Position numbers and translations under genes: made by a program. Source: Porodaedalea pini (lineage: Eukaryota; Basidiomycota; Agaricomycetes; Hymenochaetales; Hymenochaetaceae). Taken from it: 64,000 nt of DNA. Of this stretch, positions 1,186-51,480 are shown piece by piece (the first letter of the stretch is position 1; each line of letters starts with the position of its first letter). The notes beneath the pieces were generated by a model that saw only the letters and a list, made by a program, of their open reading frames with translations, ran no database searches and had not been told where the DNA came from. Where the stretch lies: positions 229,044-293,043 of the forward strand of contig NBAY01000057.1 in NCBI GenBank assembly GCA_002794775.1, written 5' to 3'.

Positions 1186-2592
1186 ATGTTAGACAAGGAA
1201 AGGGAAAACCTCTTGGCTCAAATACAAGCCATAGACAATAAACATACCCGACGGACAGCCATTTCTACCCAACCTCAGGCAACAATCGAGGAGATCCCCA
1301 ATGATGTAGAAACCTATAGCCGACAGAAGGCTCTAGTTGTCACCAGTTGTGAGACCATCAAAGCTGGTAGCTGGTTACTTGACTCTGGAGCGTCATCACA
1401 CATGACCAACAACAGGTCATGTTTCGCAACCTACACAGATATCTGCACAATAGAAATTCAAACCGTTAGGAAGAACCAGTTACTTTGTGCTATTGGAAAG
1501 GGCTCAGTACTCATCCATTTCACACATGGTGGGGCCACATTCAATATTGCAATGGACGGCGTCCTATATGTCCCAGAACTCACTCACAACCTTATATCGC
1601 TGGCCAGGCTCACCAGTTGCGGCATCAAGGTTGTATTTGAAGATGACAAGTGTACATTGTCAAGGGATAGAATCGCGTTTGCTGAAGCGTACACCCTGGA
1701 GAATCAATGGGTGATGAAAATGAGAGTTCAAGGAGAGAACGTGCATATTGTCACAACATGCAAAGACACAGTCAAACCTCTCATTGTGTGGCATCGACAC
1801 TTGGCTCATCTTGGGGAACAATGAGTAAGGGAACTCGAGCATTGCGGCATTGTAACGGGATTATCAATCCAGCAAGAGAGGGAAAGTACAAAGTGCAAGA
1901 TGTGTGTACTGTCTAAGATGACCACAACCTCTGCTGCTTCCTGTGAGCTGCAGGCCATGCATCCAGGTGACATAATCCACTCTGATCTTGAGTTCATCGG
2001 TCACGCATCCTTCACTGGAGCCACCATTTCCCTAAAATTCATTGACGAATTCTCGAACTTCGTATGGTGCCACGCAATCCAATCAAAAGACGCTGAGACT
2101 ATACTTGTCCATTGGAAAACTCTATGCTCAGAGTTCCATACACAACATTCTATTGCTATAAAGGCCCTTCACACAGATAATGGTACTGAATACGTGAACA
2201 ATGCAATGGAGTCCTTCAATAAGGAAAATGGCATACAACACCACCTAACTGTCCCATATCACCATGAAATGAATGGCCGTGCAGAACAAATGAACCGGAC
2301 AGGATCTGATGCAGTTTGCAAAATGCTCCATTTTGCAAACCTCAGTGACATTTATTGGGCCAAAGCATATGATACCTTTACATACATCCATAACAGATGT
2401 GGTACGTCTGCCATCGCTACTAAATTGCCTTTTGAAGTCCTTGTTGGACGGAAACCCGCTGTTGATCATATAAGGATCTTCAGATCAACCACGTACATGT
2501 GAATTGCTCCCAAAAAGCAGAAGAAACTCGATCCAAAATCTGCAAAGTTTATTCTTGTCGGCTATCGCGACGATGCCACTTATTGCTTAATT
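1186..2592 (+). pseudogene. Copia protease, pre-integrase and integrase core, broken and truncated by the palindrome
   Basis: The segment 1186-1824 carries the retropepsin motif LLDSGASSHM, with the catalytic Asp at about 1381, and ends in the GAG-pre-integrase segment (WHRHLAHLG). After a stop at 1822-1824, the zinc-binding His-Cys region continues (CKMCVLSK). The integrase core follows at about 1900-2502, with all three DDE positions visible: SDLEF, HTDNGTEY and the Glu in NGRAEQMNRT. A TGA at 2500-2502 sits where copia elements usually have Arg before IAPKKQ, which fits CGA to TGA. The frame resumes (KFILVGYRDD) until base 2592, where the palindromic element interrupts a Tyr-Cys-Leu-Ile stretch that continues at 16130. 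Confidence 0.85.
2586..2592. repeat. Left target-site duplication of the palindromic element
   Basis: CTTAATT here is repeated at 16130-16136. If the G at 2585 and the G at 16129 are counted, the direct repeat is 8 bp (GCTTAATT). The terminal G at 16129 can belong either to the element or to the duplication, so the length is ambiguous between 7 and 8 bp. Confidence 0.8.
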
Positions 2593-2659
2593 CACTTCAG
2601 GCTACCCTTCTGAGCAGACCAAGTAGGTCTATTTGTACACACAACTAATTGACCATTTA

Positions 2660-2880
2660 GGTATTGAGCCTGGGCGTGCCCAATCTGCTGGGCACTCCCA
2701 GTGGGTGCGGGTTGGGTGTGCCCAATTTTTTTTACTGTGGGAAAGTTGGGTGCACCCAGATCATTTGGGCACTCCCAACTGGGCCTGCCCAGTTTTGGGG
2801 CACACCCAGTGGGAGTGCCCTGGGAGTGCCCAGATATGTCACTGTCACTGACTGTCTGGGGGACTTTTGGGTGCACCCAG
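2660..2880. repeat. Subterminal array A (left) of TGGGCACTCCCA / TGGGTGCACCCA words
   Basis: About a dozen short inverted words of the form TGGG-N4-CCCA occur within 220 bp, starting about 70 bp inside the element end. Such dense subterminal repeats are typical of transposase-binding regions in hAT and CACTA-type elements. That role is inferred here. Confidence 0.75.
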
Positions 2881-3977
2881 TTTTATTTTTTGCTATAAAT
2901 TCTGGGATCATCACAAATGCTGTAATTTTTAGTTTTAGACCCTAAACCTTGGTGTATTTGTTACTATTTAGACTATGAAAAATTGACTGCATGAGTTGAC
3001 CCTTGCTGTGAGCTATGTTAGGGTTGGTAATGATCTAGGATAGAGATTGGTATCATTTTATCTATGATTATGACTGTAATTTATAGCTATATCCTACTGT
3101 TGAGCTCAGATCATCATGGTACATAGTACAAAAGGCTCATGTGACAATCAAAATATGCAAAATGCAGAAAATATATGGAATATATGAGAGACCTATGGTA
3201 TATGTTGTTCAAAATTATAGATAGACTTTACCATATAACATTCAAGACAAAGAATTGAAACAATAAAACAAATTATGTTTGACCTGATGAACTGAAGGAA
3301 ACAGATAGTGGATATGTACAAGTAAACTAGATACTTGTACTGTAGAAATTAAGCAAATAATGATAAGAAAAAAGGATAGAATGAAGAACCAGCTCTTATC
3401 AAATCAAGAACTCAGCTGACTAGCCTTCTTGCAGCAATGATCAAGCTCATTGTTCTAACAGTATATGCTTGTATCACTCTAGATAATAAACAGAGAGGCT
3501 ATGCAAGGGTTGAATAGGGTTCAAGCAGGAACTCAATACCAAGATGGCAGTGCTTGAACCATAAGTTCTAACTAAACTGTGCTCCACTCCTTCTGGAAAC
3601 TGTGCAGTCTGCCATTCTGATCAACAGTGTGTCAAATGACATCTTCCCTACAACATGAGGCCCATCATCTCAGTGCCACTGGTACATATTATGCATCAAC
3701 ATGAACCAATTCATGTCTGCAAACCTATTGGATCCATTTGTGCCTCACTGGGGTAAACCCTATCACTGTACAGCTGCCAGAATATCTGGCTGATTGCCTG
3801 TAGCTGGCACATGTCCCTCCATTCAGTGCATGTTTCATCTTCTCATTCTGGCAGCCCACACTCACATCTGTCCCACCAAATATGACTAAAGAATTTTCAA
3901 GAAGTATACAGGTGTGATCCAACTGTCTGACCTGCAAAAGACTATCTGACTACTGCACGATGTGGATGATCCTATTG

Positions 3978-4312
3978 TTTGGGAGCCCCCAACTGGGAGT
4001 GCCCAATTATCTGGGAGCCCCCAACTGGGAGTGCCCAATTATCTGGGAGCCCCCAACTAGGAGTGCCCAATTATTTGGGAGCCCCCAACTGGGAGCCCCC
4101 AATTATTTAGGAGGCCCCAACTGGGAGCCCCCAACTAGGAGTGCCCAATTATTTGGGAGCCCCCAATTGGGAGTGCCCAATAATTGGAACTGCCCAATTG
4201 GGAGCACCCAATAATTTGGGAGTGCCCAATTGGGAACACCCAATTATTTGGGAGTGCCCAGTTGGGAGTGCCCAGGGAGTGCCCAATATTTGGAAATGCC
4301 CAGTTGGGTCTC
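3978..4312. repeat. Subterminal array B (left), tandem ~32-bp units
   Basis: Roughly ten units alternate TGGGAGCCCCCAACTGGGAG with TGCCCAATTATT, decaying towards 4310. Each unit contains the same GGG/CCC inverted words as array A, so the two arrays are related. Confidence 0.8.
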
Positions 4313-4964
4313 TTTTTTATTCCTGCCCAGGAATCTTTTTTATTTTATTTTTGAAATAGAAATCATTATGTCATGAAAATTAGAATGTGTCTAGAATTGA
4401 AGCCTTGGTGATTCTACAGAGAATTTCTTCATCCTCACCTGTTGCCTCCAGTTTTGCAAGTGTGGCACCAGACTGGCCCTTGGAGATCTCCTATGATGAA
4501 AGTTTTGATGTGATGTATTGTAAGATGGATGCAACTGTCTTACTCTTCACTGGTGATACACAACACTTACTCAGATCAAAATATCCTTCTGTGTATAACA
4601 AATGAATGACTGAGACAGATACAACAGATACAACAAGAGACAGACCCTTCTCCTTGTCCACATGCAGGATGACAACAATCTCTTTCCTTCTGACACAGAT
4701 CAACCTTTGAATCAAATGAGTTCACCTGCAAGAAAGTTCCAAGAATAGAATCATCCCTTCAATGTTGTCACATTCAAGCTGCATACATCATGAATGACAG
4801 TCAGTATTAAGTCGCAATGGCCTCTGACCCAATGCTCAAGCCTGAGTTGGACAAATAGTTTGAATCTGTACTCCATGCGGTACTCCATACACTATTGGTG
4901 CTGTTATTGAAATTGTAGATAATAATAGCTGCATGATGCTGCACTCAGCATCTTGAGCATTGAT

Positions 4965-5762
4965 TCACCAAGCAAGAGTGGCAAGTACAAAAAGCACAGT
5001 GTTGGCTCTTTGAGTAGGACAGGCGTCGGGTCAGTCAACAATGATGTCCTTGACGTAAAGCGGAAAAAAGTAATGTTCATTGTGCACTGAGCGCTGCGTG
5101 CTAATGATCGTGAGAGGTGGACCTGCAAACAAGAACGGCAATGATCCTGGGGGATCAATAGCAGGGCGGCATACTTTGCACGGCTGCACCATCTGGCAGC
5201 ATACCAGCATGCCTGAGCTCTGTTCGCAAACCTTGCCTTCATCTGCGTACGGCCGAATTCCGGACTGTTTGCATCGGGCAAGGGTGGACTCAGGAAGTGC
5301 TTCGCGTCGCGCGCTGCAGATTGTTGGCAACAAACCAAACGCGATCGTTGATTCACCAAGTGAGAGTGGCGAGTACGACAGGCATAGTGTCGGTTTTTTG
5401 AGCGGAACGGGCATCGGTCAGACGACAATGGTGTCTGTGACGCAAGCATGGAAGAAAGGAATGTTTGCTGTGCACTGAGAGCCGCAATGACCGCGAGAGG
5501 TGGAGCAACAAACGAGAATGGCAACGATCCTGGGGATCGATAGTGGGGCAGCACGCTCCGCACGGCCGCATCACCTGGCAGCGTCGCAGCACGTCTGAGG
5601 TACTCCGTTTGCCATCCCTGCCTTCGTCTGCGTGCGGCCAGACTTCAGACTTGCGCCTGCATCTGACAAGGGCGGACTCGGGAAGTGCCTCGCGTTGTGC
5701 ACTGCAGAAACCGGAGACGATCCAAATGCGATCGTACCCTCGCTTTTCGCGTGTTGCATGAT
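4965..5762. repeat. Tandem duplication of ~390 bp (left arm)
   Basis: Two diverged direct copies (about 4965-5357 and 5357-5762) share landmarks such as TGAGAGTGGC, CAGAT/CAGAC-ATTG and GATCGTT/GATCATT-GCC. Neither has a long, conserved frame that I recognise. The source may be another captured host fragment. A mirror copy lies in the right arm. Confidence 0.65.
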
Positions 5763-6131
5763 GCCCGAGTTCTCTCCCCATGGTGGCACCGCGCTCTTGA
5801 CGATCCAGAGACGCCACCCAAGCGCATCGCCCAGTGCACGTTCGCAGTGTCCAACCTCCCACGGTAGGAGACCGGAGAGCTTTTCCCATGCTCGATTCGA
5901 ATAGCATCGATCCTGTAAGAATTTAAATACCAGAATGAGTGCGGCGAGGAGAGTGCGGCGAGGGAAGAGGTGGCAGCGGTGTGAGCGGGTTTGCCGGAAT
6001 CTTACGACGCTCGTCGTTAGACTGCCTTTGAATCTGCATCTGTTGAGTTAATGGAAGCGAAGCATCCATCGGGAGGACTGTCGACACACACGATGCGACC
6101 TATTCGACATCGGTTCCGTTGGAAGACCGCA

Positions 6132-6486
6132 GAGGTTGGATGTGTCCAAAGAGGTATTCGCCTGACTCCCGTGCCTCTCCTCTCCTCCACGAGCTCCGAC
6201 GCTTCCTCCCGCACCACTTCGATGTAGCAGAGCGCCGACTGCAGGACGCTGCATCTCGTGCGTGAACGGCGGAGAACACCCTGTGCGAATGTTTTGATCG
6301 GAACGAGATCCTTCTCGGACACAACGATTGCGTCGCGTTCGCCGAAGTGCTCGATGAGAAAGACGGATAGGAAAACGGCTGACGTCGATGTTGAAGCGTG
6401 TGGAGTGTCGGCGGGGGCAGAAGGAAGGGGCGAGGAATGCGTCGTAGGTGAACAGGGCGAGGGAAGTTGAACCGCTCGACATTTTC
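6132..6486 (-). pseudogene. Captured PCL/Pho85-type cyclin fragment, outer copy (left arm)
   Basis: The minus-strand frame has [21 protein letters not shown] and [17 protein letters not shown]. This resembles the N-terminal part of basidiomycete PCL-type cyclins, where a cyclin_N helix reads close to VLQTALCYLE. It is a fragment only, with no start and an altered C-terminal end. It is a direct duplicate of 7487-7806. Confidence 0.6.
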
Positions 6487-7442
6487 GGTAGACGCCTTGC
6501 TCGGTGTTGAAGTCGTGAGGTCAATGATCAGGTCGTAATACTGAGGTTTCTCCATGAAGATTGCGTCGGTCGTGCATGCGATCCAGCCACGTCCCGTCTT
6601 GCTTTCGCGTTCGAGGCGCTGCAAGTTGCTTAGTGTCACCATGCCGAGTACTGACGGGCTTTCTGGAGATGGCTCGTCCTTGCTCGGCGCTCCAAAAAGC
6701 CCTTGTATTGGCGTCCCGAGTGCATGGCCTCTGGACGCCATATGGTGCTCGCGACAGAGGTCTGATGCGATCCATGCGAGCACACCTGCAACTTCAACCG
6801 GCGGGAGCGTGAAGATCAGGATGCGTCGGCGTGAGAGCACAAATTTGTAGAGCGAAAGCGACGATTGGACGCATAATTCTGCACAGGGCGTCAGAGCAAG
6901 TAGAATAAAAACAGAAACAGACGTACGCCATCGAGCTCGTCGCTCCAGCTAGACCATAAGTCTGCAGATGCCTTCTCGTCCACCCTGTGTGACTCAAACC
7001 ACATGCGCGCGGGGGCGAAGTCCGCCTCCGTCAAGTCCCCCGCAGCACCCAGCCCCAACAAATCTTCGTCACCTTCCTGCTCCCGAGCATCCGCTTCTGC
7101 GTAGATCCCATCCGCCAGAGCACGTAGCGCAGCGACGTGTAGCCACGGCCGCGGGCGAGGGGCGGTCTTGAGGAGGATACCGAGCGACGCCAGCCTAAAC
7201 CCGCGATGCGCCTGAGCACGCGTTGGTCGTCGTCGAAAGACGGCGAGCCCACTACGGGCGCCATGTGAGAGATATACAGGGTCACGCTCTACGAGCTGAA
7301 GTCCACTTGGGAGCACGCTGAACTCGACGCCGTCGAGGCTGAGGTTGTCATCGGCCTTCGACGCCCAGTCGATGACATTTCCCTTCGTAGGGTGGAATGA
7401 GGCGTGGAATATTGCGACTGGCAGACTGTCCATTGACATCAG
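6487..7442 (-). pseudogene. Captured LCHN/DENN-domain gene fragment with its intron (left arm)
   Basis: This is the mirror of 11280-12235, where details are given. The minus-strand frame shows FHPTKGNVIDW, GLAVFRRRPT, LLSRRRILIFTLPPVEVAG and GWIACTTDAIF, in LCHN/DENND11-like order, with a spliceosomal-type intron of 48 bp. Confidence 0.6.
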
Positions 7443-7486
7443 TTCCGTCGGAAGGCCGCAAGGTTGGATGTGTCCTAAGAGGTATT

Positions 7487-7806
7487 CGCCCTTGACTCCC
7501 GTGCCTCTCCTCTCCTCCACGAGCTCCGACGCTTCCTACCGCACCACTTCGATGTAGCAGAGCGCCGACTGCAGGATGCTGCATCTCGTGCGTGAACGGT
7601 GGAGAACCCCTTGTGCGAATGTTTTGATCGGAACGAGATCCTTCTCGGACACAACGGTTGCGTCGCGTTCGCCGAAGTGCTCGGTGAGAAAGGCGGATGG
7701 GAAAACGGCTGACGTCGATGTTGAAGCGTGTGGAGCGTCGGCGGGAGCAGAAGGAAGAGGCGAGGAATGCGTTCAAGGTGAACAGGGCGAGGGAAGTTGA
7801 ACCGCT
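7487..7806 (-). pseudogene. Captured PCL/Pho85-type cyclin fragment, inner copy (left arm)
   Basis: About 95% identical by eye to 6132-6486 and in the same orientation, with a TAG stop replacing a Glu codon after the IEVVR segment. Together the two copies flank the DENN fragment as direct repeats. Confidence 0.6.
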
Positions 7807-8196
7807 CGACGATTTCGGTAGATGTCGCCAGTCCCTCCCTGCCTGACAATGACGAGAGAGAGAACGGCGACGTCGCGACCGATGATGCAGCCACGGACCG
7901 GCTTGCACTTTCTCGCCGGTGCGGCAGAGACGGTAGCAAGAGTGACCAGCAGAAAGGAGAAGGCGAACGGTTGGGAATGAGTACACCCTGCTTCATCGGG
8001 AAGTCCTGCTCGTCGTTTCCGCCAGAGAAGCGAAAGACGTAGCCTCTGAACTCATCACCGAGCGAGTCACCAGGGATGCCTGGGACATCTTCTTGCCGTG
8101 GAAGATGCGGTAACGACGCTCATCGTCGATGTCGATCGTCTTTTGCTGGCCCATCGCCGGGTCAGTGATGTCAAAACTTCATGGACGGTGGTGTCT
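7807..8196 (-). pseudogene. Captured ribosomal protein S6 (eS6) fragment (left arm)
   Basis: This is the mirror of 10526-10915. The frames show [38 protein letters not shown] and [13 protein letters not shown], as in eS6, broken by at least two small indels. It ends abruptly where the cyclin fragment begins. Confidence 0.85.
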
Positions 8197-8371
8197 TGCA
8201 GAGCTCGTCGTGTTCTGCCCCTTCAGGCAAGCAAAAAAAAATGCTGAAAAGTAATATTTAGTGTATTCAAATAGTTTTCATGAATTTGTTTTTGCTTACC
8301 TTGAGTGTGTGGCCGGTGGGACACCTGAGCTCGTTGTTGAAGGTGAAGACGAAACGACACGAACAACGACG

Positions 8372-8576
8372 ACGCGTCGGTTGTATTGCCTGATTTGGCC
8401 GATCGACGCGTCTCAAACAAGTAATCAAAGCATTCCGTGATCTTCGGATATCTTGAAGGTCTCAGCTGTCGGCCTCAAAACATTTCTACGGACGCGTTTA
8501 AAAATACAAAAAAATATGGAATAGTTTTAGAATGTATTTATCTCTAGAATAGCCAAGAACTACGCGTCCAACGCGT
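8372..8576. other. Cluster of five ACGCGT hexamers (left arm)
   Basis: ACGCGT occurs at 8372, 8406, 8492, 8562 and 8571 (hexamer starts). The word is the MluI cell-cycle box of fungal MBF, but here it may be chance or a structural motif. The mirror cluster is at 10146-10350. Confidence 0.5.
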
Positions 8577-9300
8577 TTTTTTATGGTGTCATAAATACAA
8601 CAGCAATCCTCACATGTAGCACTAGGCCTCCAGAGGCATACACCAAAGTAAAATATGTTCTGAAAGGCCTGACACCTATTCTGTCATGAAGTAAGTATTA
8701 CACTATGTATGTATGCAAGGGTTCAAGCCAATCAGACAAGAATTGACTTCATAATAGAGAAGGAGGTGACTTCATGAGATCTCCTGAATCTGAGTGTTTT
8801 GCATATCCTGTTCCCATTTTTTACTTTGATGGCACATAAAATATTGGGCATATCCTTAATAGATAGTTCTATGTTTCTGTAAATTTACAAGTTTCCAGCC
8901 TCAGTGGTTGGAGCTGGGTGAATTGCACAACATCGAAAATCATGGGTTTAAGAAGTTCAGAGAAAGTACAGATGGGTGACAAAAGTGACCGTGATTGTGG
9001 GTTTTACCTGTATTTTGATAGTTTCTCAGTCAAATTTTGTCCGTTTTCCTTGAAAAAAATTGAGCACAATTTGGCATACATACCTGATGTCCCTGTGAAA
9101 TATTATTGCAATCAGAGATAAAATGAGTCAGTGGTGAGGGAAACAGAGGCGAGAGGGCATGTCTCATTTCAGTACCTTTTCAGGGCAAATTTTGGTGCTT
9201 TTCCCCTTCTGTAGCTAGAACAACAGAGAGATGAGCCCTGAAAATTTACATGGATATAATATAGTATATTTTATACCTGATATGATGTTTTAAGATTTTT

Positions 9301-9421
9301 TGAAGGTGTTTGTGGCAAGTTATTGGCCATGGATTTGAAATCTCTCAAAATCTGCCTGTTTTCAGGCTATATGCATGTCCATCCTCAATACACTATATGC
9401 CAGCACACGTAGAATGCCCCT
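9301..9421. other. Unique spacer between the palindrome arms
   Basis: This is the only part of the element not present twice. It is 121 bp and non-coding, and contains no inverted repeat of note. It would form the loop if the arms paired. Confidence 0.9.
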
Positions 9422-10145
9422 AAAAATCTTAAAAAATCATATCAGGTATAAAATATACTATATTATATCCATGTAAATTTTCAGGGCTCATCTCTCTGTT
9501 GTTCTAGCTACAGAAGGGGAAAAGCACCAAAATTTGCCCTGAAAAGGTACTGAAATGAGACATGCCCTCTCGCCTCTGTTTCCCTCACCACTGACTCATT
9601 TTATCTCTGATTGCAATAATATTTCACAGGGACATCAGGTATGTATGCCAAATTGTGCTCAATTTTTTTCAAGGAAAACGGACAAAATTTGACTGAGAAA
9701 CTATCAAAATACAGGTAAAACCCACAATCACGGTCACTTTTGTCACCCATCTGTACTTTCTCTGAACTTCTTAAACCCATGATTTTCGATGTTGTGCAAT
9801 TCACCCAGCTCCAACCACTGAGGCTGGAAACTTGTAAATTTACAGAAACATAGAACTATCTATTAAGGATATGCCCAATATTTTATGTGCCATCAAAGTA
9901 AAAAATGGGAACAGGATATGCAAAACACTCAGATTCAGGAGATCTCATGAAGTCACCTCCTTCTCTATTATGAAGTCAATTCTTGTCTGATTGGCTTGAA
10001 CCCTTGCATACATACATAGTGTAATACTTACTTCATGACAGAATAGGTGTCAGGCCTTTCAGAACATATTTTACTTTGGTGTATGCCTCTGGAGGCCTAG
10101 TGCTACATGTGAGGATTGCTGTTGTATTTATGACACCATAAAAAA

Positions 10146-10350
10146 ACGCGTTGGACGCGTAGTTCTTGGCTATTCTAGAGATAAATACATTCTAAAACTA
10201 TTCCATATTTTTTTGTATTTTTAAACGCGTCCGTAGAAATGTTTTGAGGCCGACAGCTGAGACCTTCAAGATATCCGAAGATCACGGAATGCTTTGATTA
10301 CTTGTTTGAGACGCGTCGATCGGCCAAATCAGGCAATACAACCGACGCGT
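10146..10350. other. Cluster of five ACGCGT hexamers (right arm)
   Basis: Mirror of 8372-8576. It lies just upstream of the S6 fragment in the outward reading direction. Confidence 0.5.
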
Positions 10351-10525
10351 CGTCGTTGTTCGTGTCGTTTCGTCTTCACCTTCAACAACGAGCTCAGGTG
10401 TCCCACCGGCCACACACTCAAGGTAAGCAAAAACAAATTCATGAAAACTATTTGAATACACTAAATATTACTTTTCAGCATTTTTTTTTGCTTGCCTGAA
10501 GGGGCAGAACACGACGAGCTCTGCA

Positions 10526-10915
10526 AGACACCACCGTCCATGAAGTTTTGACATCACTGACCCGGCGATGGGCCAGCAAAAGACGATCGACATCGACGAT
10601 GAGCGTCGTTACCGCATCTTCCACGGCAAGAAGATGTCCCAGGCATCCCTGGTGACTCGCTCGGTGATGAGTTCAGAGGCTACGTCTTTCGCTTCTCTGG
10701 CGGAAACGACGAGCAGGACTTCCCGATGAAGCAGGGTGTACTCATTCCCAACCGTTCGCCTTCTCCTTTCTGCTGGTCACTCTTGCTACCGTCTCTGCCG
10801 CACCGGCGAGAAAGTGCAAGCCGGTCCGTGGCTGCATCATCGGTCGCGACGTCGCCGTTCTCTCTCTCGTCATTGTCAGGCAGGGAGGGACTGGCGACAT
10901 CTACCGAAATCGTCG
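10526..10915 (+). pseudogene. Captured ribosomal protein S6 (eS6) fragment (right arm)
   Basis: The eS6 protein is a 40S ribosomal subunit component, and I recognise its N-terminal half. From 10568 the frame reads [17 protein letters not shown]. After a small deletion near 10645 it continues in another frame with [15 protein letters not shown] and [12 protein letters not shown]. An extra pair of bases near 10762 moves it again to [19 protein letters not shown], and the last part ([19 protein letters not shown]) is visible in a further frame. The fragment stops at a junction (TACCGAAATCGTCGAGCGG) that also precedes the second cyclin copy. It has no complete start and cannot make S6. An intron-like GTAAGC...TTTTCAG stretch lies just upstream (10422-10478), so the source was probably genomic DNA rather than cDNA. 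Confidence 0.85.
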
Positions 10916-11235
10916 AGCGGTTCAACTTCCCTCGCCCTGTTCACCTTGAACGCATTCCTCGCCTCTTCCTTCTGCTCCCGCCGACGCTCCACACGCTTCA
11001 ACATCGACGTCAGCCGTTTTCCCATCCGCCTTTCTCACCGAGCACTTCGGCGAACGCGACGCAACCGTTGTGTCCGAGAAGGATCTCGTTCCGATCAAAA
11101 CATTCGCACAAGGGGTTCTCCACCGTTCACGCACGAGATGCAGCATCCTGCAGTCGGCGCTCTGCTACATCGAAGTGGTGCGGTAGGAAGCGTCGGAGCT
11201 CGTGGAGGAGAGGAGAGGCACGGGAGTCAAGGGCG
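10916..11235 (+). pseudogene. Captured PCL/Pho85-type cyclin fragment, inner copy (right arm)
   Basis: The third plus-strand frame reads [30 protein letters not shown] and [18 protein letters not shown]. This fits the N-terminal region of fungal PCL cyclins, regulators of the Pho85 kinase. A TAG follows directly. It matches 12236-12590 closely, so this is one of two direct copies. The family call rests on remembered patterns, not on a search. Confidence 0.6.
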
Positions 11236-11279
11236 AATACCTCTTAGGACACATCCAACCTTGCGGCCTTCCGACGGAA

Positions 11280-12235
11280 CTGATGTCAATGGACAGTCTG
11301 CCAGTCGCAATATTCCACGCCTCATTCCACCCTACGAAGGGAAATGTCATCGACTGGGCGTCGAAGGCCGATGACAACCTCAGCCTCGACGGCGTCGAGT
11401 TCAGCGTGCTCCCAAGTGGACTTCAGCTCGTAGAGCGTGACCCTGTATATCTCTCACATGGCGCCCGTAGTGGGCTCGCCGTCTTTCGACGACGACCAAC
11501 GCGTGCTCAGGCGCATCGCGGGTTTAGGCTGGCGTCGCTCGGTATCCTCCTCAAGACCGCCCCTCGCCCGCGGCCGTGGCTACACGTCGCTGCGCTACGT
11601 GCTCTGGCGGATGGGATCTACGCAGAAGCGGATGCTCGGGAGCAGGAAGGTGACGAAGATTTGTTGGGGCTGGGTGCTGCGGGGGACTTGACGGAGGCGG
11701 ACTTCGCCCCCGCGCGCATGTGGTTTGAGTCACACAGGGTGGACGAGAAGGCATCTGCAGACTTATGGTCTAGCTGGAGCGACGAGCTCGATGGCGTACG
11801 TCTGTTTCTGTTTTTATTCTACTTGCTCTGACGCCCTGTGCAGAATTATGCGTCCAATCGTCGCTTTCGCTCTACAAATTTGTGCTCTCACGCCGACGCA
11901 TCCTGATCTTCACGCTCCCGCCGGTTGAAGTTGCAGGTGTGCTCGCATGGATCGCATCAGACCTCTGTCGCGAGCACCATATGGCGTCCAGAGGCCATGC
12001 ACTCGGGACGCCAATACAAGGGCTTTTTGGAGCGCCGAGCAAGGACGAGCCATCTCCAGAAAGCCCGTCAGTACTCGGCATGGTGACACTAAGCAACTTG
12101 CAGCGCCTCGAACGCGAAAGCAAGACGGGACGTGGCTGGATCGCATGCACGACCGACGCAATCTTCATGGAGAAACCTCAGTATTACGACCTGATCATTG
12201 ACCTCACGACTTCAACACCGAGCAAGGCGTCTACC
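11280..12235 (+). pseudogene. Captured LCHN/DENN-domain gene fragment with intron (right arm)
   Basis: Exonic sequence from 11282 reads IFHASFHPTKGNVIDW, GVEFSVLPSG and GLAVFRRRPTRAQAHRG, and continues to about 11797. A 48-bp intron (GTACGT...GTGCAG, 11796-11843) is followed by LLSRRRILIFTLPPVEVAG, ASDLCREHH, GWIACTTDAIFMEKPQYYD and LIIDLT. This order (longin-like start, then the R-R-I-L-x-F-x-P-P-V motif, then ACTTxxIF) fits LCHN/DENND11-type DENN proteins, putative Rab GEFs. The fragment is remarkably clean compared with the others. The mirror copy is at 6487-7442. Confidence 0.6.
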
Positions 12236-12590
12236 GAAAATGTCGAGCGGTTCAACTTCCCTCGCCCTGTTCACCTACGACGCATTCCTCGCCCCTTCCT
12301 TCTGCCCCCGCCGACACTCCACACGCTTCAACATCGACGTCAGCCGTTTTCCTATCCGTCTTTCTCATCGAGCACTTCGGCGAACGCGACGCAATCGTTG
12401 TGTCCGAGAAGGATCTCGTTCCGATCAAAACATTCGCACAGGGTGTTCTCCGCCGTTCACGCACGAGATGCAGCGTCCTGCAGTCGGCGCTCTGCTACAT
12501 CGAAGTGGTGCGGGAGGAAGCGTCGGAGCTCGTGGAGGAGAGGAGAGGCACGGGAGTCAGGCGAATACCTCTTTGGACACATCCAACCTC
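12236..12590 (+). pseudogene. Captured PCL/Pho85-type cyclin fragment, outer copy (right arm)
   Basis: The frame reads [18 protein letters not shown] and [19 protein letters not shown] and extends slightly further than the inner copy. Both copies begin with the same TCTACCGAAA-TCGAGCGGTTCAAC junction sequence, so the DENN fragment sits between direct repeats. Confidence 0.6.
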
Positions 12591-12959
12591 TGCGGTCTTC
12601 CAACGGAACCGATGTCGAATAGGTCGCATCGTGTGTGTCGACAGTCCTCCCGATGGATGCTTCGCTTCCATTAACTCAACAGATGCAGATTCAAAGGCAG
12701 TCTAACGACGAGCGTCGTAAGATTCCGGCAAACCCGCTCACACCGCTGCCACCTCTTCCCTCGCCGCACTCTCCTCGCCGCACTCATTCTGGTATTTAAA
12801 TTCTTACAGGATCGATGCTATTCGAATCGAGCATGGGAAAAGCTCTCCGGTCTCCTACCGTGGGAGGTTGGACACTGCGAACGTGCACTGGGCGATGCGC
12901 TTGGGTGGCGTCTCTGGATCGTCAAGAGCGCGGTGCCACCATGGGGAGAGAACTCGGGC

Positions 12960-13757
12960 ATCATGCAACACGCGAAAAGCGAGGGTACGATCGCATTTGG
13001 ATCGTCTCCGGTTTCTGCAGTGCACAACGCGAGGCACTTCCCGAGTCCGCCCTTGTCAGATGCAGGCGCAAGTCTGAAGTCTGGCCGCACGCAGACGAAG
13101 GCAGGGATGGCAAACGGAGTACCTCAGACGTGCTGCGACGCTGCCAGGTGATGCGGCCGTGCGGAGCGTGCTGCCCCACTATCGATCCCCAGGATCGTTG
13201 CCATTCTCGTTTGTTGCTCCACCTCTCGCGGTCATTGCGGCTCTCAGTGCACAGCAAACATTCCTTTCTTCCATGCTTGCGTCACAGACACCATTGTCGT
13301 CTGACCGATGCCCGTTCCGCTCAAAAAACCGACACTATGCCTGTCGTACTCGCCACTCTCACTTGGTGAATCAACGATCGCGTTTGGTTTGTTGCCAACA
13401 ATCTGCAGCGCGCGACGCGAAGCACTTCCTGAGTCCACCCTTGCCCGATGCAAACAGTCCGGAATTCGGCCGTACGCAGATGAAGGCAAGGTTTGCGAAC
13501 AGAGCTCAGGCATGCTGGTATGCTGCCAGATGGTGCAGCCGTGCAAAGTATGCCGCCCTGCTATTGATCCCCCAGGATCATTGCCGTTCTTGTTTGCAGG
13601 TCCACCTCTCACGATCATTAGCACGCAGCGCTCAGTGCACAATGAACATTACTTTTTTCCGCTTTACGTCAAGGACATCATTGTTGACTGACCCGACGCC
13701 TGTCCTACTCAAAGAGCCAACACTGTGCTTTTTGTACTTGCCACTCTTGCTTGGTGA
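12960..13757. repeat. Tandem duplication of ~390 bp (right arm)
   Basis: Mirror of 4965-5762. The copies are about 12960-13365 and 13365-13757. An upstream frame (about 12815-12960) has Trp-rich short matches (for example LGWRLWIVK) that look like captured coding sequence, but I cannot name it. Confidence 0.65.
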
Positions 13758-14409
13758 ATCAATGCTCAAGATGCTGAGTGCAGCATCATGCAGCTATTAT
13801 TATCTACAATTTCAATAACAGCACCAATAGTGTATGGAGTACCGCATGGAGTACAGATTCAAACTATTTGTCCAACTCAGGCTTGAGCATTGGGTCAGAG
13901 GCCATTGCGACTTAATACTGACTGTCATTCATGATGTATGCAGCTTGAATGTGACAACATTGAAGGGATGATTCTATTCTTGGAACTTTCTTGCAGGTGA
14001 ACTCATTTGATTCAAAGGTTGATCTGTGTCAGAAGGAAAGAGATTGTTGTCATCCTGCATGTGGACAAGGAGAAGGGTCTGTCTCTTGTTGTATCTGTTG
14101 TATCTGTCTCAGTCATTCATTTGTTATACACAGAAGGATATTTTGATCTGAGTAAGTGTTGTGTATCACCAGTGAAGAGTAAGACAGTTGCATCCATCTT
14201 ACAATACATCACATCAAAACTTTCATCATAGGAGATCTCCAAGGGCCAGTCTGGTGCCACACTTGCAAAACTGGAGGCAACAGGTGAGGATGAAGAAATT
14301 CTCTGTAGAATCACCAAGGCTTCAATTCTAGACACATTCTAATTTTCATGACATAATGATTTCTATTTCAAAAATAAAATAAAAAAGATTCCTGGGCAGG
14401 AATAAAAAA

Positions 14410-14744
14410 GAGACCCAACTGGGCATTTCCAAATATTGGGCACTCCCTGGGCACTCCCAACTGGGCACTCCCAAATAATTGGGTGTTCCCAATTGGGCAC
14501 TCCCAAATTATTGGGTGCTCCCAATTGGGCAGTTCCAATTATTGGGCACTCCCAATTGGGGGCTCCCAAATAATTGGGCACTCCTAGTTGGGGGCTCCCA
14601 GTTGGGGCCTCCTAAATAATTGGGGGCTCCCAGTTGGGGGCTCCCAAATAATTGGGCACTCCTAGTTGGGGGCTCCCAGATAATTGGGCACTCCCAGTTG
14701 GGGGCTCCCAGATAATTGGGCACTCCCAGTTGGGGGCTCCCAAA
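14410..14744. repeat. Subterminal array B (right)
   Basis: Mirror of 3978-4312, with the same ~32-bp units of GGG/CCC inverted words. Confidence 0.8.
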
Positions 14745-15841
14745 CAATAGGATCATCCACATCGTGCAGTAGTCAGATAGTCTTTTGCAGGTCAGACAGT
14801 TGGATCACACCTGTATACTTCTTGAAAATTCTTTAGTCATATTTGGTGGGACAGATGTGAGTGTGGGCTGCCAGAATGAGAAGATGAAACATGCACTGAA
14901 TGGAGGGACATGTGCCAGCTACAGGCAATCAGCCAGATATTCTGGCAGCTGTACAGTGATAGGGTTTACCCCAGTGAGGCACAAATGGATCCAATAGGTT
15001 TGCAGACATGAATTGGTTCATGTTGATGCATAATATGTACCAGTGGCACTGAGATGATGGGCCTCATGTTGTAGGGAAGATGTCATTTGACACACTGTTG
15101 ATCAGAATGGCAGACTGCACAGTTTCCAGAAGGAGTGGAGCACAGTTTAGTTAGAACTTATGGTTCAAGCACTGCCATCTTGGTATTGAGTTCCTGCTTG
15201 AACCCTATTCAACCCTTGCATAGCCTCTCTGTTTATTATCTAGAGTGATACAAGCATATACTGTTAGAACAATGAGCTTGATCATTGCTGCAAGAAGGCT
15301 AGTCAGCTGAGTTCTTGATTTGATAAGAGCTGGTTCTTCATTCTATCCTTTTTTCTTATCATTATTTGCTTAATTTCTACAGTACAAGTATCTAGTTTAC
15401 TTGTACATATCCACTATCTGTTTCCTTCAGTTCATCAGGTCAAACATAATTTGTTTTATTGTTTCAATTCTTTGTCTTGAATGTTATATGGTAAAGTCTA
15501 TCTATAATTTTGAACAACATATACCATAAGTCTCTCATATATTCCATATATTTTCTGCATTTTGCATATTTTGATTGTCACATGAGCCTTTTGTACTATG
15601 TACCATGATGATCTGAGCTCAACAGTAGGATATAGCTATAAATTACAGTCATAATCATAGATAAAATGATACCAATCTCTATCCTAGATCATTACCAACC
15701 CTAACATAGCTCACAGCAAGGGTCAACTCATGCAGTCAATTTTTCATAGTCTAAATAGTAACAAATACACCAAGGTTTAGGGTCTAAAACTAAAAATTAC
15801 AGCATTTGTGATGATCCCAGAATTTATAGCAAAAAATAAAA

Positions 15842-16062
15842 CTGGGTGCACCCAAAAGTCCCCCAGACAGTCAGTGACAGTGACATATCTGGGCACTCCC
15901 AGGGCACTCCCACTGGGTGTGCCCCAAAACTGGGCAGGCCCAGTTGGGAGTGCCCAAATGATCTGGGTGCACCCAACTTTCCCACAGTAAAAAAAATTGG
16001 GCACACCCAACCCGCACCCACTGGGAGTGCCCAGCAGATTGGGCACGCCCAGGCTCAATACC
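15842..16062. repeat. Subterminal array A (right)
   Basis: Mirror of 2660-2880. The words TGGGCACTCCCA, TGGGTGCACCCA and relatives lie within about 290 bp of the right end. Confidence 0.75.
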
Positions 16063-16129
16063 TAAATGGTCAATTAGTTGTGTGTACAAATAGACCTACT
16101 TGGTCTGCTCAGAAGGGTAGCCTGAAGTG

Positions 16130-16136
16130 CTTAATT
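16130..16136. repeat. Right target-site duplication of the palindromic element
   Basis: CTTAATT matches 2586-2592. Removing the element plus one copy restores a continuous copia frame (Tyr-Cys-Leu-Ile-Asp-Arg-Asp). Confidence 0.85.
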
Positions 16137-17276
16137 GACAGAGATACGAGAAAGATTCAATACTCTCGTGAGATAATTTTCAATGATTCTAAGAACTTCC
16201 AGATTCCTGATCAACCGGAAGACATACTAGAGAATGCTCCGTCTACACACCACAATACACCCATGGTTCTTCACCACTCCAAATGTCTACAACAACAACA
16301 TGTCAACTTATCAACAGAACGATGTGTTATAGCAGGGATATTTCTGCCACACAGCTCCAAAGAGGCACTTCACTCCCACCACTTGATGGAGTGGCACAAA
16401 GCTATGGTATACAAAGTCAGCAAACTCACAGAAATAGATTGTTGAGAAGTTGTCAAACACCCCAGCAACCAACACGTCATCCATGACATGTGGATTTTCA
16501 ACATAAAGGAGGAGGCTGATGGGTCCCTTGATTATAGAGCATGATGGGTGGCTCATGGGGACTTACAGATCCCAGGACTAGAGTTTGACGAAACTTTTGC
16601 CACATCTGGAGACTTCATTGCTGCAAAAGTTGTCACTGTGCTTAGTTCGCACCCGCACGGTCACCTAGTCACTATTGACATCAACTCTGCATACCTTCAC
16701 AGCCCTCTGTCAGAACCCAACCTTGTTGTTGACTACCCACCTGGCTTCTCTGTCAAAGGCTTCAATAGGCCTTGCTGTCTTCTCAAACGTGCTCTCTATG
16801 GACTTCGCCAAGGTGCTCGGGCATGGTCAATACACTTCAACAGCAAGCTTTTGGTCCTTGGCTACAAACACTGCATGTCTGCCCCTAGTGTCTATGCCCG
16901 ATCAGACGTCGAGGGGGAGTCAATAATTGCGACACATGTTGATGACTGCATGGCTTACTGCATTTCGACGTCTGACAAGCGCGACACCGAAGCAGACAGG
17001 TTTAAATCTGAAATAGGCTCCCATTTCCAATTCAAGGAGAAGGATGCACAAAAGCGAGCTAATCTACTGGGTATGACCATGTTCTATAATGAATCCAAAG
17101 GTTACGTCAAACTGTCTATTACACTCAAGATTGAATGTGCTCTAGACAAGTACAATCTCAAGGGTGCCTCGTCTTACCGGACACCGATGGCAAGGGACGC
17201 GCTCACTCTATTTGATAAAGACACCTTGCAGCCACCCGATAACCCACCGTGGCCCTATGCGCAACTGGTTGGGGAA
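16130..17276 (+). pseudogene. Copia integrase-RT linker and reverse transcriptase, broken, truncated by the Gypsy insertion
   Basis: The frame DRDTRKIQYSREIIFND continues the pre-palindrome copia sequence. A TGA at about 16442 and another at about 16543 (where the family has Arg in YKARWVA) interrupt it. The RT core runs from about 16548 to 17276: VTIDINSAYLHSPL, the LLKRALYGLRQGARAW box and the catalytic HVDDC box are all present. The frame reaches YAQLVGELL and is then cut by the Gypsy LTR at 17282. The enzyme would copy copia RNA into DNA. It cannot be made intact here. Confidence 0.9.
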
Positions 17277-17281
17277 CTGCT
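17277..17281. repeat. Left CTGCT target duplication of the Gypsy element
   Basis: CTGCT here matches 23559-23563. Five bp is the usual LTR-retrotransposon duplication. Confidence 0.9.
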
Positions 17282-17706
17282 TGTTAGGCGGGAGTCTGGG
17301 AGACGACTCGGACTGGGCAGGCCTCAGCTGACTGTCGTCTGGGATGTGTTATACTCGAGTGTAGACTCGGGACACGCTCACTCAGGCTAGGTCATCGCGG
17401 AGGTAAGAGGATTAATACAAGTCTAAACTAATACAAGGGGGACGAGTCTCACCTAGGTCGTCGCGGAGGTAAGAGGAAAAGCAGAACAAGGAGTTCATGC
17501 GATTCCTGAGACCTTATATAGCGACGACCGTGAGACTATATTACCTAACATTACATAACGAGTGGGAATGGAACAAATGAAGGTCATGTGAAGGGAGTGT
17601 GGGAAGTGATTGGAAAGATGATTAAAGATAATAAGAAAGAGCGGTTAAAAGGAAAGGAAAAAGGGAAAGGGGAAATAAAGAAAGGGTGAAAGTTCGAGTT
17701 CTGACA
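17282..17706 (-). repeat. Gypsy 3' LTR
   Basis: 425 bp. On the minus strand it starts TGTCAGAACTCG and ends CGCCTAACA. It differs from 23134-23558 at nine bases, all transitions and all at CpG-derived sites. Confidence 0.95.
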
Positions 17707-18960
17707 TTACCCCCCCCTCAAGGTTGGGCGTCCCGACCAACCAAGATTGTGGTCGTCTGACTCAGTGTCGATGAAGCGTGGGCAAAGTCGTTGGCGAGGA
17801 ATTTCGAGTTTTCGAGGGGCGCCGGGGTGTTTTCGATAGAATTCAGTGATCGCCTCCTTTGCGTTCTCGCCAAAGTCCATCTCGGGCTGCCACATCGGTT
17901 CGTTGTAGCCAACCCACTTGACGAGGTATTGTAGCTTCCCTCGGTGCAGACGCGAGTCTATGACTTCCTCGATCTCGTACTCTTCCTCGTTGTCGACGAT
18001 GTCAGGTGGCAGCGGCAGCTGTTGTTTCTGACTTTTGAAGGACAGTTCAACTGCGGGTTTCAGCAGGGCCTCATTGAAGACCGGGTGGACCTTTTTCCAT
18101 CGCTTTGGGAGCTTGAGCTTGTATGCGCTCGCTCCCACCTTGTCGACGATCTCGAAGGGACCATACCACTTGTCCGCTAGCTTCTTCGTCGGTGAGTCTG
18201 TACTGATGTTTTGCCCATCGAGGAAAATCTTGTCTCCAGCCTTGTACTCCACTGAAGCCCCTGCTGTCCGGTCGTGGTAGCGCTTCATGTCCTCTGCTGC
18301 CTTGACCAGATTGTCCTTTGCTACACGGTGAGTCTCCTTGATGTGCTTCGCGAATTCTTCCGCCGACATGTTGGCAGAGGAAGTTCTTACGGTGTCGAAG
18401 CTCTTAGGGTGACGTCCGGTGTTCGCGTAGAAGGGTGACATTTTCGTCGCCGAGTGTTCGCGGTTATTGTAAGCGAACTCTGCGAGAGGGAGCCAGTCTT
18501 TCCAGTCTGATTGCCAATGGTTAACGAAGAGTCGGAGATACTGTTCGAGCTCTTGGTTGACACGTTCCGTCTGACCATCCGTTTGTGGGTGGTACGCGGT
18601 TGACGGGTTGCCTTCGATGTGTAGGAGATTGTACAGCTCCTTCATCATCGACGCATCGAACTGCGTGCCTCGGTCATGGATGATCTTCTTTGGTAGGCCA
18701 TGAAGACGGAAGACGTGGTCGTGGTATAACTGAGCCATACCTTCCGCTGACAATTTCATCATTGTCGGGATCACATGCATCTGCTTCGAGAACCTGTCTA
18801 CAAAGACGCAGATCGTGTTGTGTCCCTTGGAGTCCGGGAGCTCTCCGATTAGGTCGACCGTGATGATTTCCCAAGGACCTTCAGGGACTGCGTTTGGGTG
18901 AAGCGGCCTCGACCTCGACGTTCTTAAGGCTTTCATCCGTTGACAGCGGTCGCATCCTCA
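17707..18960 (-). pseudogene. Gypsy integrase with C-terminal chromodomain
   Basis: After two TGA codons at about 18950-18970, in the zinc-finger region where CGA Arg codons are expected, the frame is open to 17707. The retroviral integrase core shows TVDLIGELPD, HDRGTQFDA and the DDE Glu in TDGQTERVNQELE. The C-terminal end has YEIEEVIDSR and LQYLVKWVGY, a chromodomain that in chromoviruses targets insertion to marked chromatin. The usual W-E-P motif reads WQP here. The stop is at the polypurine tract next to the LTR. Confidence 0.9.
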
Positions 18961-18969
18961 GACATACGC

Positions 18970-19797
18970 TCAGACATTGGAGAACATTGATGCCCACCAG
19001 AAATCGCGACGGACGAGCTCTACTGTCTTCGATGCTCCCGGATGACCGGCGAGTACCGAGTCATGGCACTCTCGTAACACGGCCTCCTTCATTGTCGACG
19101 GAACGTATATCTTGCCTTTCATCTGCCACAACCCGTCGACTTCTGTCATGTTCGTCGGCCTCTCCGATTCGTCCTGCGCCCTCTGCGCTTCACCCACTCG
19201 TTCCACCACCTCATCATGCGATGTTCGCACTACCCCATGGTTCAGCCACTTGTCCTTGATGAACACAATGCTGTCATTGTCATCCTTGCCCTGATCATAG
19301 CCCACCTTGCATGACAGCAAGTCGGCTTTGCCCATCGTCTTCCCTGACTTGTGTTCGAGGTGGAAGTCGAATTCTTTGAGTTCAGTTCGCCAGCGAGCTT
19401 GACGATAGCTCAGCTTCTGCGCTGACCTGAAGTAGGTGAGGTTGGCATGGTCGGACCAGATTTCGATTTTGTGGCGAGCGCCAAGGAGGTACTGCCGCCA
19501 CTCCTTGAGCACTGAAATGATTGCGAGCATCTCTTTGTCGTAGATCTCGTAGTTTCGTTCTGCTGGTTCGAGCGCCTCTGATCTGTAGGCGATCACCCTC
19601 CACTTTCCTTCCTGCTTCTGCAACAACACGCCGCCGAGTGCAAAGTTTGACGAGTCCGCCTCTACGCAGAAAGGGCCTTCGTCGTTGGCGATGGCTAGGA
19701 CTGGAGGTGAGCAGAGACGTCATCTCAGCTCCTCGAATGCTTCCTGCTGTTCGGTCTCCCATACCCAGTCCTTCTTGCCTGTTAGCGACGTCAACGG
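18970..19797 (-). pseudogene. Gypsy RNase H and integrase zinc finger
   Basis: The open frame 19629-18970 reads GGVLLQKQEGKWRVIAY, NYEIYDKEMLAII and the HANLTYF motif of Ty3/gypsy RNase H. It then has the H-H-C-C start of integrase (ECHDSVLAGHPGASKT). Upstream, the linker to RT is interrupted by TGA codons at about 19799 and 19722. The catalytic Cys/Arg position near LLSCKV is Cys where relatives have Arg (CGC to TGC). Confidence 0.85.
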
Positions 19798-21324
19798 TCA
19801 GACCACCTTGCTGTAGTCCTTAATAAACCGTCTCAGCCAGTTTCCCATGCCGAGGAACTGTTGCAGCTCCTTGAGGTTTCGTGGGACAGGCCAGTTCGCT
19901 ATCGCGTCCGTCTTCGCCAGGTCAGCCCTGATTTCGCCGTTGCCAATGATATGACCGAGGTACTTGACGACTTTGGCATCGAATTCGCACTTCTCCGGCT
20001 TCAGGTACAGGCCATTTTCTCGGAGGATCTGGAGTACGCGCCTCGACGTGTCGATATGCTCCTCTATGGTTTCTGAGAGGATTAGGATGTCGTTGAGGTA
20101 TACGATGATCAGGTTGGCATAGATCAGGTCCTTGAAGATATGGTTGACAAAAGCCTGGAACGTGGCCGGCGCATTGCAAAGGCCAAAGAACATGACCGTT
20201 GGTTCGAAGAGGCCCATGTTCGTGCGAAACGCTGCCTTCCATTCGTCACCCTCACGGATCCGGATATTGTAGTACCCCCAGCAAAGGTCAAGCTTAGTGA
20301 TGTACTTCGCTTTCTTGACCTTGTCGACGAGTTCGTCGATGAGAGGAAGGGGATACTTGTTCTTGATCGTACTGTCATTGAGTTTACGGTAATCCTGGAT
20401 CGGGCGTAACGATTTGTCAGCTTTCTTAATGAAGAAGAAAGGTGACGCCATGGGTGATATTGATCGTCGGATGCGACCAGACTTCAAGTTTTCATCGAGG
20501 AAGTCCTTGAGTGACTGTTGCTCCGTCGGCGTGAGCGGGTAGATCTTACAGTCACTCGGTTTGAAGTCGGGCTTCAAGTCAATGACGTGATCCCAGGGTT
20601 GGTGTTCAGGCAGCTTTTTGAAGCCTTTTTCGCTGAAAACGTCGGCATAGTCATTGAGGTACGTGGGCCAGGACGCCTTGTCCATTCGCGTCTCACTCAC
20701 CCTCCTCATCTGTTCCACCACCTCCTTTACCTTGCCTAGGTCTTCCACCGGCTCCCCCTCGATCGCACATTCCTCTGGACAACGAGTGAATTCAATCGAA
20801 CCCATTTTCCAGTCGACCTCAGGGTTATGACGTCGAAGCCAGTTGTGTCCCAAGAATATGTTTGATGATGCTAGGGACATTACCGCAAGGACAATCCTTT
20901 CCTTGTGGTGGCCGATCATGAGCTTGACTTCGACGTACTCTTCAATCAAACCAGCCTCGTTGTGCGTGCCGTCGGCATTGAGCACTGCGAGGGGTCGGAT
21001 GTAACATTTCGTTTCCAACCCATACCGTTCGATGAACCTCACGTCGATGCACGATCCTGTACACCCTGAGTCCACAAGAGCGTGTGCGTCCACCTCTCTC
21101 ACTTCGCCCGCTACGCTTTGTCCGACGTTCAGGAGAAGGTCCAGCTGGCGTCCACCAGTTCCTCTCATGAACAGCTGTTCATACTCCTCGTCTTTATTCA
21201 CACCGGTGGGGACTTCGTAATTGGAAAAACCATCGACGTCGTTTGCATCTATGTATTGTACAGACAGTTGGTTATATTTTAGCGAATCCAGATTCGAAGT
21301 CCCTTGTTCTTCTTGGTCAGTCAC
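19798..21324 (-). pseudogene. Gypsy protease and reverse transcriptase, RT active site mutated
   Basis: This 508-residue frame has the retropepsin box ALVDSGCTGSCID near residue 86 and RT boxes ITKLDLCWGYYNIRI, GLCNAPATFQAFVN and VYLNDILIL. The last one is the YxDD catalytic box, but its first Asp is Asn (AAC instead of GAC in a CTCGAC context), which should abolish polymerisation. The frame ends at a TGA (19798-19800) where CGA Arg is expected. Relative to gag the frame is shifted by -1 and overlaps it. Confidence 0.9.
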
Positions 21325-21332
21325 CCCGATGA

Positions 21333-22808: not shown

Positions 22809-23133
22809 CGGCGAAGTTGATGATGAGGCGGTAGGAGCCGAGCGAGATCACGAATGAGATTGTTGTCGAGGCTTGTACTCGTCTGGTCACCCACGTCCAC
22901 GTCAGGTGCGTGCTCCACCAGAGGCTAATCCGGAGAGCCAGGGTCGGGAAAGGTTGGTTGGAGTGATTACATAATACACGAATGTCCGAAAACGTCCGGG
23001 CAGGGTTGAGGGTTGTCATTTAGGGGGTTTACACGTCAGGTCCTTCAAGGGGAGTGCTCCTCTAGACCGAGTGAGGGCGAGTCGACAGCGACGACGTACG
23101 CTGGGGATGAGCCTGGGTGGGGTTCTGCTTTTA

Positions 23134-29056: not shown

Positions 29057-29177
29057 TGCGCGACTTTTCTCGCGTCTCCACTGAAATTTCCCCAACCTCC
29101 CCACACGCCTTCGCCGTCAAGCACTACAGCGCCGTCGCCGTTCTCAACAACGAGCAGACGCAAAACAGACAGCGAAG

Positions 29178-51474: not shown

Positions 51475-51480
51475 AAAAAA

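Follow-up and report, generated by a model that had tools for sequence, protein, structure and literature searches.

A mobile element that is palindromic over nearly its whole length lies at positions 2593-16129 of a 64,000-nucleotide stretch of the Porodaedalea pini genome (the window; contig NBAY01000057.1, positions 229,044 to 293,043, assembly GCA_002794775.1). This 13,537-bp element, corresponding to C57:231636-245172, is from here on called the C57 element; C57, C28 and similar labels are contig numbers of the same assembly, with a and b marking two elements on one contig. Based on the KDZ domain found in two elements with the same terminus (C28 and C2), target-site duplications (TSDs) of 7-8 bp and CA...TG ends, the C57 element is best read as a non-autonomous Kyakuja-Dileera-Zisupton (KDZ) transposon with captured gene fragments, whose inverted repeats have grown to meet mid-element. 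The probability of this reading is put at roughly 0.7. The superfamily is known; the whole-length palindromic architecture is extreme and new.

Architecture and insertion site of the C57 element

Self-BLAST aligned 2593-16129 inverted onto itself, bearing out the sequence-only reading, which had described a 13.5-kb near-perfect palindromic transposon with two 6.7-kb arms around a 121-bp spacer. The arms are ungapped, 6,708 nt each, with a 121-nt interval between them, and for an inverted match of 6.7 kb chance is no concern. Near-identity of the arms also held, but the single differing base of that reading became two, at positions 3193 (C/T) and 9287 (G/T). The element and its insertion site comprise the following features:

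1825..2502, + strand: integrase part of a copia element (rve, PF00665; Pfam), left of the insertion
2586..2592, no strand: left TSD copy, CTTAATT (from the sequence and a TSD table of 45 elements)
2593..9300, + strand: left arm, beginning with CACTTCAGGCTACCC
3979..4293, + strand: subterminal array of ~32-bp units (TGGGAGCCCCCAACTGGGAGTGCCCAATTATC) in the left arm (repeat analysis)
6106..6492, + strand: 0.39-kb direct duplication inside the arm, partner at 7435-7822, 94%
8969..9754, no strand: nested inverted-repeat element with ends CAGATGGGTGAC, TA at 8967-8968 and 9755-9756
9301..9421, no strand: asymmetric 121-bp spacer, part of the nested central element
9422..16129, - strand: right arm, mirror of the left arm, 2 mismatches in 6,708
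14429..14743, - strand: mirror of the subterminal array in the right arm (repeat analysis and mirror coordinates)
16130..16136, no strand: right TSD copy, CTTAATT (same sources as the left copy)
16545..17390, + strand: reverse transcriptase part of the copia element (RVT_2, PF07727; Pfam), right of the insertion

Insertion into a copia element with a TSD had been proposed as well, and both sides of the junction agree with it. Translated separately, the left copia flank ends in ...RDDATYCLI and the right one begins with LIDRDTRKIQY...; with the integrase on the left, RVT_2 on the right and translations that continue across, the copia frame was broken at one point with a 7-bp duplication. An in-frame stop is present farther upstream in the left flank. 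Very long inverted repeats, internal tandem repeats and little unique middle are all found, as in foldback-type elements. Miniature inverted-repeat transposable elements (MITEs) are short and non-coding, usually below 600 bp (PMC3573991), and at 13,537 bp the C57 element does not belong with them. A separate small transposon making up the outer 1.7 kb was considered and rejected, as a second terminus was not seen at its inner end.

The mirror-image family and its probable link to KDZ transposases

The terminus CACTTCAGGCTACCC, allowing one mismatch, occurs 121 times in the 53.3-Mb assembly (201 contigs), compared with 3 matches for a reversed control pattern. Termini were paired by eye, drawing on 100 listed of the 121 matches and all 20 matches of a one-base variant, with the left terminus of C120 taken from a separate search. 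At least 45 elements with both CACTTCAGG-type termini could be identified, 10.7-35.1 kb long (median 14.6 kb) and together amounting to 0.71 Mb or 1.3% of the assembly. A genome search for further arm-end copies, as suggested by the sequence-only reading, thus returned many, and the C57 element is no singleton but belongs to a mirror-image family of about 50 elements.

Arm-interior searches scored the best candidates only, so that their counts of mirrored pairs are lower bounds. The first, which did not list the window's own copy, gave at least 19 other elements with mirrored pairs (C69, C162, C66, C133, C1, C42, C56, two on C14, C70, C35, C40, C120, C54, C83, C65, C24, C122 and C44). With the C37 arm interior, at least 14 elements had matches in both orientations, including C37 itself as the query source (C37, C65, C105, C51, C125, C116, C86, C49, C112, C24, C147, C25, C46 and the outer C50 element). 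Four further elements were read whole: C66, C29b and C37 are palindromic, C28 is not. At C50:61983-97119, a palindromic element (82633-95945) is nested in the right arm of another.

KDZ domains (PF18758) are matched 77 times in the genome, twice inside the 45 elements, specifically in C28 (C28:19200-19916, E 2.4e-60 on an open frame) and C2 (C2:524049-524513). Both are bounded by the same 15-bp terminus and by 8-bp TSDs. C28 is 22.1 kb long, with 4.0-kb terminal inverted repeats (TIRs) that differ at 8 of 3,962 aligned positions, and its end regions match the C57 element at 90-95% over ~1.5 kb. C2 has a match at 81% to almost the full extent of a 6.35-kb C28 stretch, all other matches being ~0.8 kb or shorter among the best 40 of 88 candidates. 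C28 and C2 are also the only two of the 45 elements without a mirrored RPS6 fragment (best 150 of 193 candidates; see below). Ten reading frames of C28 were scanned, giving one KDZ domain, one match below cut-off and eight frames with nothing; a TET/JBP gene was not found among these ten. For a second frame of C28 (3135-3830 in local numbering), other parts of the genome hold ~35 relatives at 68-69% (best 40 of 88 candidates).

The natural reading would be that two transposase-bearing types, represented by C28 and C2, accompany a large set of non-autonomous palindromes. KDZ transposase from C28- or C2-like elements may move the C57-type palindromes in trans by cut and paste, presumably acting on the CACTTCAGG ends and the subterminal repeats, the array being a candidate transposase-binding region. 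A CACTA identity, considered for the CACT start, was rejected: the TSD of CACTA elements is 3 bp, and here TSDs of 7-8 bp and a KDZ domain were found. Drosophila Foldback (FB) elements have an FB/Mutator-type transposase and a 9-bp TSD, and the 7-8 bp TSD and the KDZ domain in partner elements likewise set the present family apart from them.

Exact TSDs of 7-8 bp flank 30 of the 45 elements; one has a 6-bp TSD and three a 7-bp TSD with one mismatch. Comparing 101 ends yielded four 7-8 bp and two 6-bp cross-matches between different records. To the right of C24b and to the left of C65b the same 8 bp are found, and neither element has a TSD of its own, as might follow recombination between two copies. 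C85 and C63, which match over 7 bp, resemble the ends of a single element divided between contigs, and the C65a/C105 and C120/C168 matches look like duplicated or allelic flanks.

Fragments of two host genes, DENND11 and RPS6, are carried inside the arms of the C57 element and are therefore present twice:

6496..6855, - strand: DENND11 fragment, C-terminal part, left arm (PF09804; C57:235539-235898)
7098..7412, - strand: DENND11 fragment, N-terminal part, left arm (profile match in arm frames)
7964..8077, - strand: RPS6 fragment, left arm (PF01092)
10645..10758, + strand: mirrored RPS6 fragment, right arm (genome profile match)
11310..11624, + strand: mirrored DENND11, N-terminal part, right arm (genome profile match)
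11867..12226, + strand: mirrored DENND11, C-terminal part, right arm (genome profile match)

Fuller copies lie elsewhere, with a host DENND11 gene at C80:42660-43625 and a full-profile host RPS6 match at C81:91618-91995, so that the cargo is of the Pack type. DENND11 pieces are found in four elements, mirrored in the C57 element, C69 and C162 but not in C141. Among the best 150 of 193 candidates, from which 107 of 113 rows were used, RPS6 pieces form at least 50 divergent pairs plus 7 single matches. An RPS6 pair is present in 43 of the 45 elements, centred within 100 bp in 31 of them (exactly in 11), and these 31 measure 12.5-17.0 kb. Off-centre pairs include those of C69, which has an insertion in one arm, and of the outer C50 element, which contains another element. 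Given the mirrored pair in 43 of 45 elements, capture of the RPS6 exon was probably a single, early event, and the fragment has been mirrored ever since. Retro-capture of the cargo was rejected, as a probable intron, read by eye, is kept beside the RPS6 piece.

Several observations weigh against the KDZ palindrome reading. C28 and the C57 element have only their outer ~1.6 kb in common, not their interior, and the common ends and TSDs are all that trans-mobilisation would rest on. Kojima's Kyakuja families are described as being without TIRs (PMC12730594), whereas long TIRs are found in all five elements read whole here, which does not fit the Kyakuja lineage. A TSD is missing in 11 of the 45 elements. 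C129, C179, C119 and C3 matched in one orientation only in the C37-interior search; C119 and C3 have an RPS6 pair. Finally, the arms of C141 (44743-50723) are unlike each other and come from different subfamilies, at 95% and 87% to the C57 element.

Concerted evolution of the arms and possible origins of the palindrome

Arms within one element change in concert. Partner arms differ at 2 of 6,708 positions in the C57 element, 1 of 6,259 in C29b, 1 of 7,145 in C37 and 13 of 4,948 in C66, where 11 of the 13 mismatches and both internal gaps (32 and 224 bp) fall at alignment positions 1486-1843, in the subterminal repeat array. Alignments of four arms, with gap columns left uncounted, separate changes present in both arms of an element from those in one. 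Between C29b and C37, 1,269 differences are mirrored and 2 unmirrored (5,461 columns); between the C57 element and C66, 60 variable columns are mirrored and 3 unmirrored (4,918 columns). For the outer 1,515 bp, tested in 17 of the 45 elements, the two arms of an element are closer to each other than to any other arm in 15, and partners differ at 4 or fewer positions in 13. The C57 arms differ at 1 position here, while the nearest other arm tested is 1.5% away. The exceptions are C19 and C40, where all 20 mismatches in the former and 17 of 21 in the latter fall past position 1,320, in the array, whose unit register differs. C162 arms show 3 mismatches over 2,559 aligned bp. Two further comparisons were not relied on: that of the outer 3.1 kb of C69 (139 mismatches over 3,044 positions) extended into a nested insertion, and the inner arms of C1 (1 mismatch over 3,001 aligned positions, with 904 gap columns) have unequal ends.

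Three kinds of palindrome centre could be distinguished. The 306-bp centre of C69 is common within the family, all 40 scored matches (best 40 of 52 candidates) lying inside it at 93-100%. The C57 centre has only 20-bp arm ends in common with it, and the C162 centre nothing. In the C57 element, the nested 786-bp element forms the exact centre of the palindrome and replaces the ~340-bp centre of its relatives. Mirrored arm sequence stands just outside the TA on both sides; in the relatives, the arm continues from this junction point into the common centre. Six other near-full-length copies at 95-96% lie elsewhere in the genome, and these central 786 bp are a palindromic element in their own right, independent of the one that contains them. 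C162 turns round at CAACG-ACGATG-CGTTG, a 5-bp stem with a 6-nt loop, and the arms of C29b and C37 have CAACGACGACGCGTTG at the matching place.

The C57 and C162 centres look like the result of fold-back copying of one arm. Arm identity may be renewed by copying one arm onto the other, the most likely route being fold-back (template-switch) synthesis at an inverted repeat. In the C57 element this repeat would be the nested palindromic element now at the exact centre, in C162 the 5-bp stem with its 6-nt loop. Human and yeast DNA provide documented cases of inverted duplication at short inverted repeats (PMC3907307, PMC10766183). Fold-back on the chromosome would mirror the flank too; that the mirror ends at the termini suggests a TIR-bounded molecule or recombination in the long TIR. 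Copying may thus take place on an excised or otherwise TIR-bounded molecule and stop at the TIR, or the event may be resolved by recombination within the long TIR. We tentatively propose, as a possibility on the unlikely side, a self-mirroring transposon whose second half is regenerated from the first via a hairpin-capped or fold-back linear TIR-bounded intermediate. With fold-back, a single step accounts for the C57 and C162 centres alike and leaves the arms perfect.

Two considerations count against fold-back at these centres. When DNA is palindromic to begin with, any short inverted repeat in one arm also acts as a direct repeat from arm to arm, and microhomology-mediated deletion then ends in an identical C162 junction. 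The C57 centre could likewise be reached if the nested element underwent gene conversion and its two copies then recombined. Both belong to a scenario without fold-back that is possible but doubtful, in which an ancestral palindrome has stayed symmetric only through in-place gene conversion between its arms, and new centres arose by deletion round the hairpin tip. The common centre, retained in all scored matches despite different cargo and a divergence between subfamilies of ~20%, is in keeping with such an ancestor, and a 5-bp microhomology deletion predicts the C162 centre just as well. However, the C57 centre would then require the nested element in both arms and subsequent recombination between the copies, or else a deletion ending at the exact mirror base, where fold-back needs a single step. 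The difference of 4 or fewer bases between partner arms in 13 of 17 elements also speaks against conversion alone. Far less probable is a recent burst in which each subfamily was amplified from one palindromic master and the arms are alike because the copies are young. C37-type copies are indeed 97-100% alike to one another over 5 kb, and C29b and C37 arms differ at one base each, but the masters themselves must have gathered the 1,269 mirrored and 2 unmirrored differences, and young copies do not explain mirrored changes in ancestors. The arm difference within the C57 copy (1 in 1,515) is also far under the 1.5% to the nearest other arm tested.

An assembly artefact, in which the assembler turned hairpin or missing-adapter reads into mirrored sequence, is very improbable. 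Contigs do begin or end inside an element (C162, C63, C133, C168), as expected for palindromes that are hard to assemble. The C57 element, however, lies between unique flanks and is bordered by a TSD on either side, an argument raised from the sequence before and strengthened here by dozens of copies with different flanks, mostly their own TSD and the same architecture. Divergent RPS6 pairs in 43 of 45 elements over many contigs and an asymmetric centre common to the family also argue against an artefact, and the arms of C66 differ in array length, which mirrored reads would not produce.

Known systems, neighbouring features and implications

Fungal KDZ elements (Kyakuja, Dileera, Zisupton) resemble the family in the KDZ domain of C28 and C2, the CA...TG termini and the 7-8 bp TSDs. 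Kyakuja elements have 7-bp TSDs and CA..TG ends, and Zisupton elements 8-bp TSDs (PMC12730594); Cryptococcus KDZ1-3 are ~9-11 kb long, their TSDs measuring 4-8 bp and their TIRs 139-241 bp (PMC12810828). The TIRs of C28 reach 4.0 kb, compared with these 139-241 bp or, in the Kyakuja families described, none, and the non-autonomous copies read whole here are full-length palindromes. No description of a whole-length palindromic KDZ family was found in the titles and abstract openings that searches of open-licence literature listed.

In form, Galileo and Tm1 are the nearest foldback-like families. Galileo, a foldback-like member of the P superfamily in Drosophila, likewise has non-autonomous two-TIR copies, TIRs extended inward, internal tandem repeats and chimeric copies bounded by different 7-bp sequences; the longest TIRs given there are ~1.26 kb, with 95.2% identity in the copy concerned (PMC3573991). 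Here, the arms are 6-7 kb long with 1-2 differences in three of the four palindromes read whole, host genes are mirrored and the transposase is of another family. The Tm1 Mutator/Foldback elements of root-knot nematodes share composite TIRs of variable length, MITE-like copies and rare transposase-bearing copies, but their TIR pairs average 93.15% identity, their TSDs are 9 bp and an element sized there is 1,080 bp (PMC3169594). Fold-back inverted duplications (PMC3907307) and the hairpin-capped fragments of ODIRA (PMC10766183) are alike in having inverted junctions at short inverted repeats, in the former also with a loop spacer. Those events are chromosomal, the ODIRA fragments ending in native telomeres, whereas the mirror described here is cut off exactly at the transposon termini and is seen repeatedly within a mobile family. 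Pack-MULEs are also long-TIR elements carrying gene fragments (PMC3310237), but here the fragments lie inside the repeats and hence occur twice each, in mirror image.

Other parts of the window hold further elements and genes. An unrelated 875-bp palindrome at 36170-37044, 95.6% self-complementary by BLAST and with ends TTACAGCCATTTTCATAAG, is probably another small inverted-repeat element. A Gypsy-type LTR retrotransposon (17265-23558) has 446-bp repeats 96% alike and, on the - strand, chromo and reverse-transcriptase domains, and a LINE-like element (47648-53439, - strand) has RNase H, reverse transcriptase and endonuclease domains in adjacent frames. Host genes encode an HMG-CoA reductase with a sterol-sensing domain (29085-34319) and a heme peroxidase (PF00141; 45707-46465), the latter as would suit a wood- or litter-decay basidiomycete.

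Palindromes of kilobase length are expected to be unstable, and yet about 50 mirrored elements are kept in this one genome as a mobile family. If the self-mirroring proposal is true, one surviving arm would suffice to rebuild a complete mobile element, and a gene fragment captured by one arm would automatically be doubled in mirror image. The captured fragments observed here, each doubled in mirror image, would, as a matter of speculation, be a possible source of hairpin RNA against host RPS6 and DENND11. For studying how palindromes arise, withstand breakage and keep their symmetry in a eukaryote, the family supplies a naturally occurring set in which the arms are comparable, the centres are of three kinds and the cargo has diverged.

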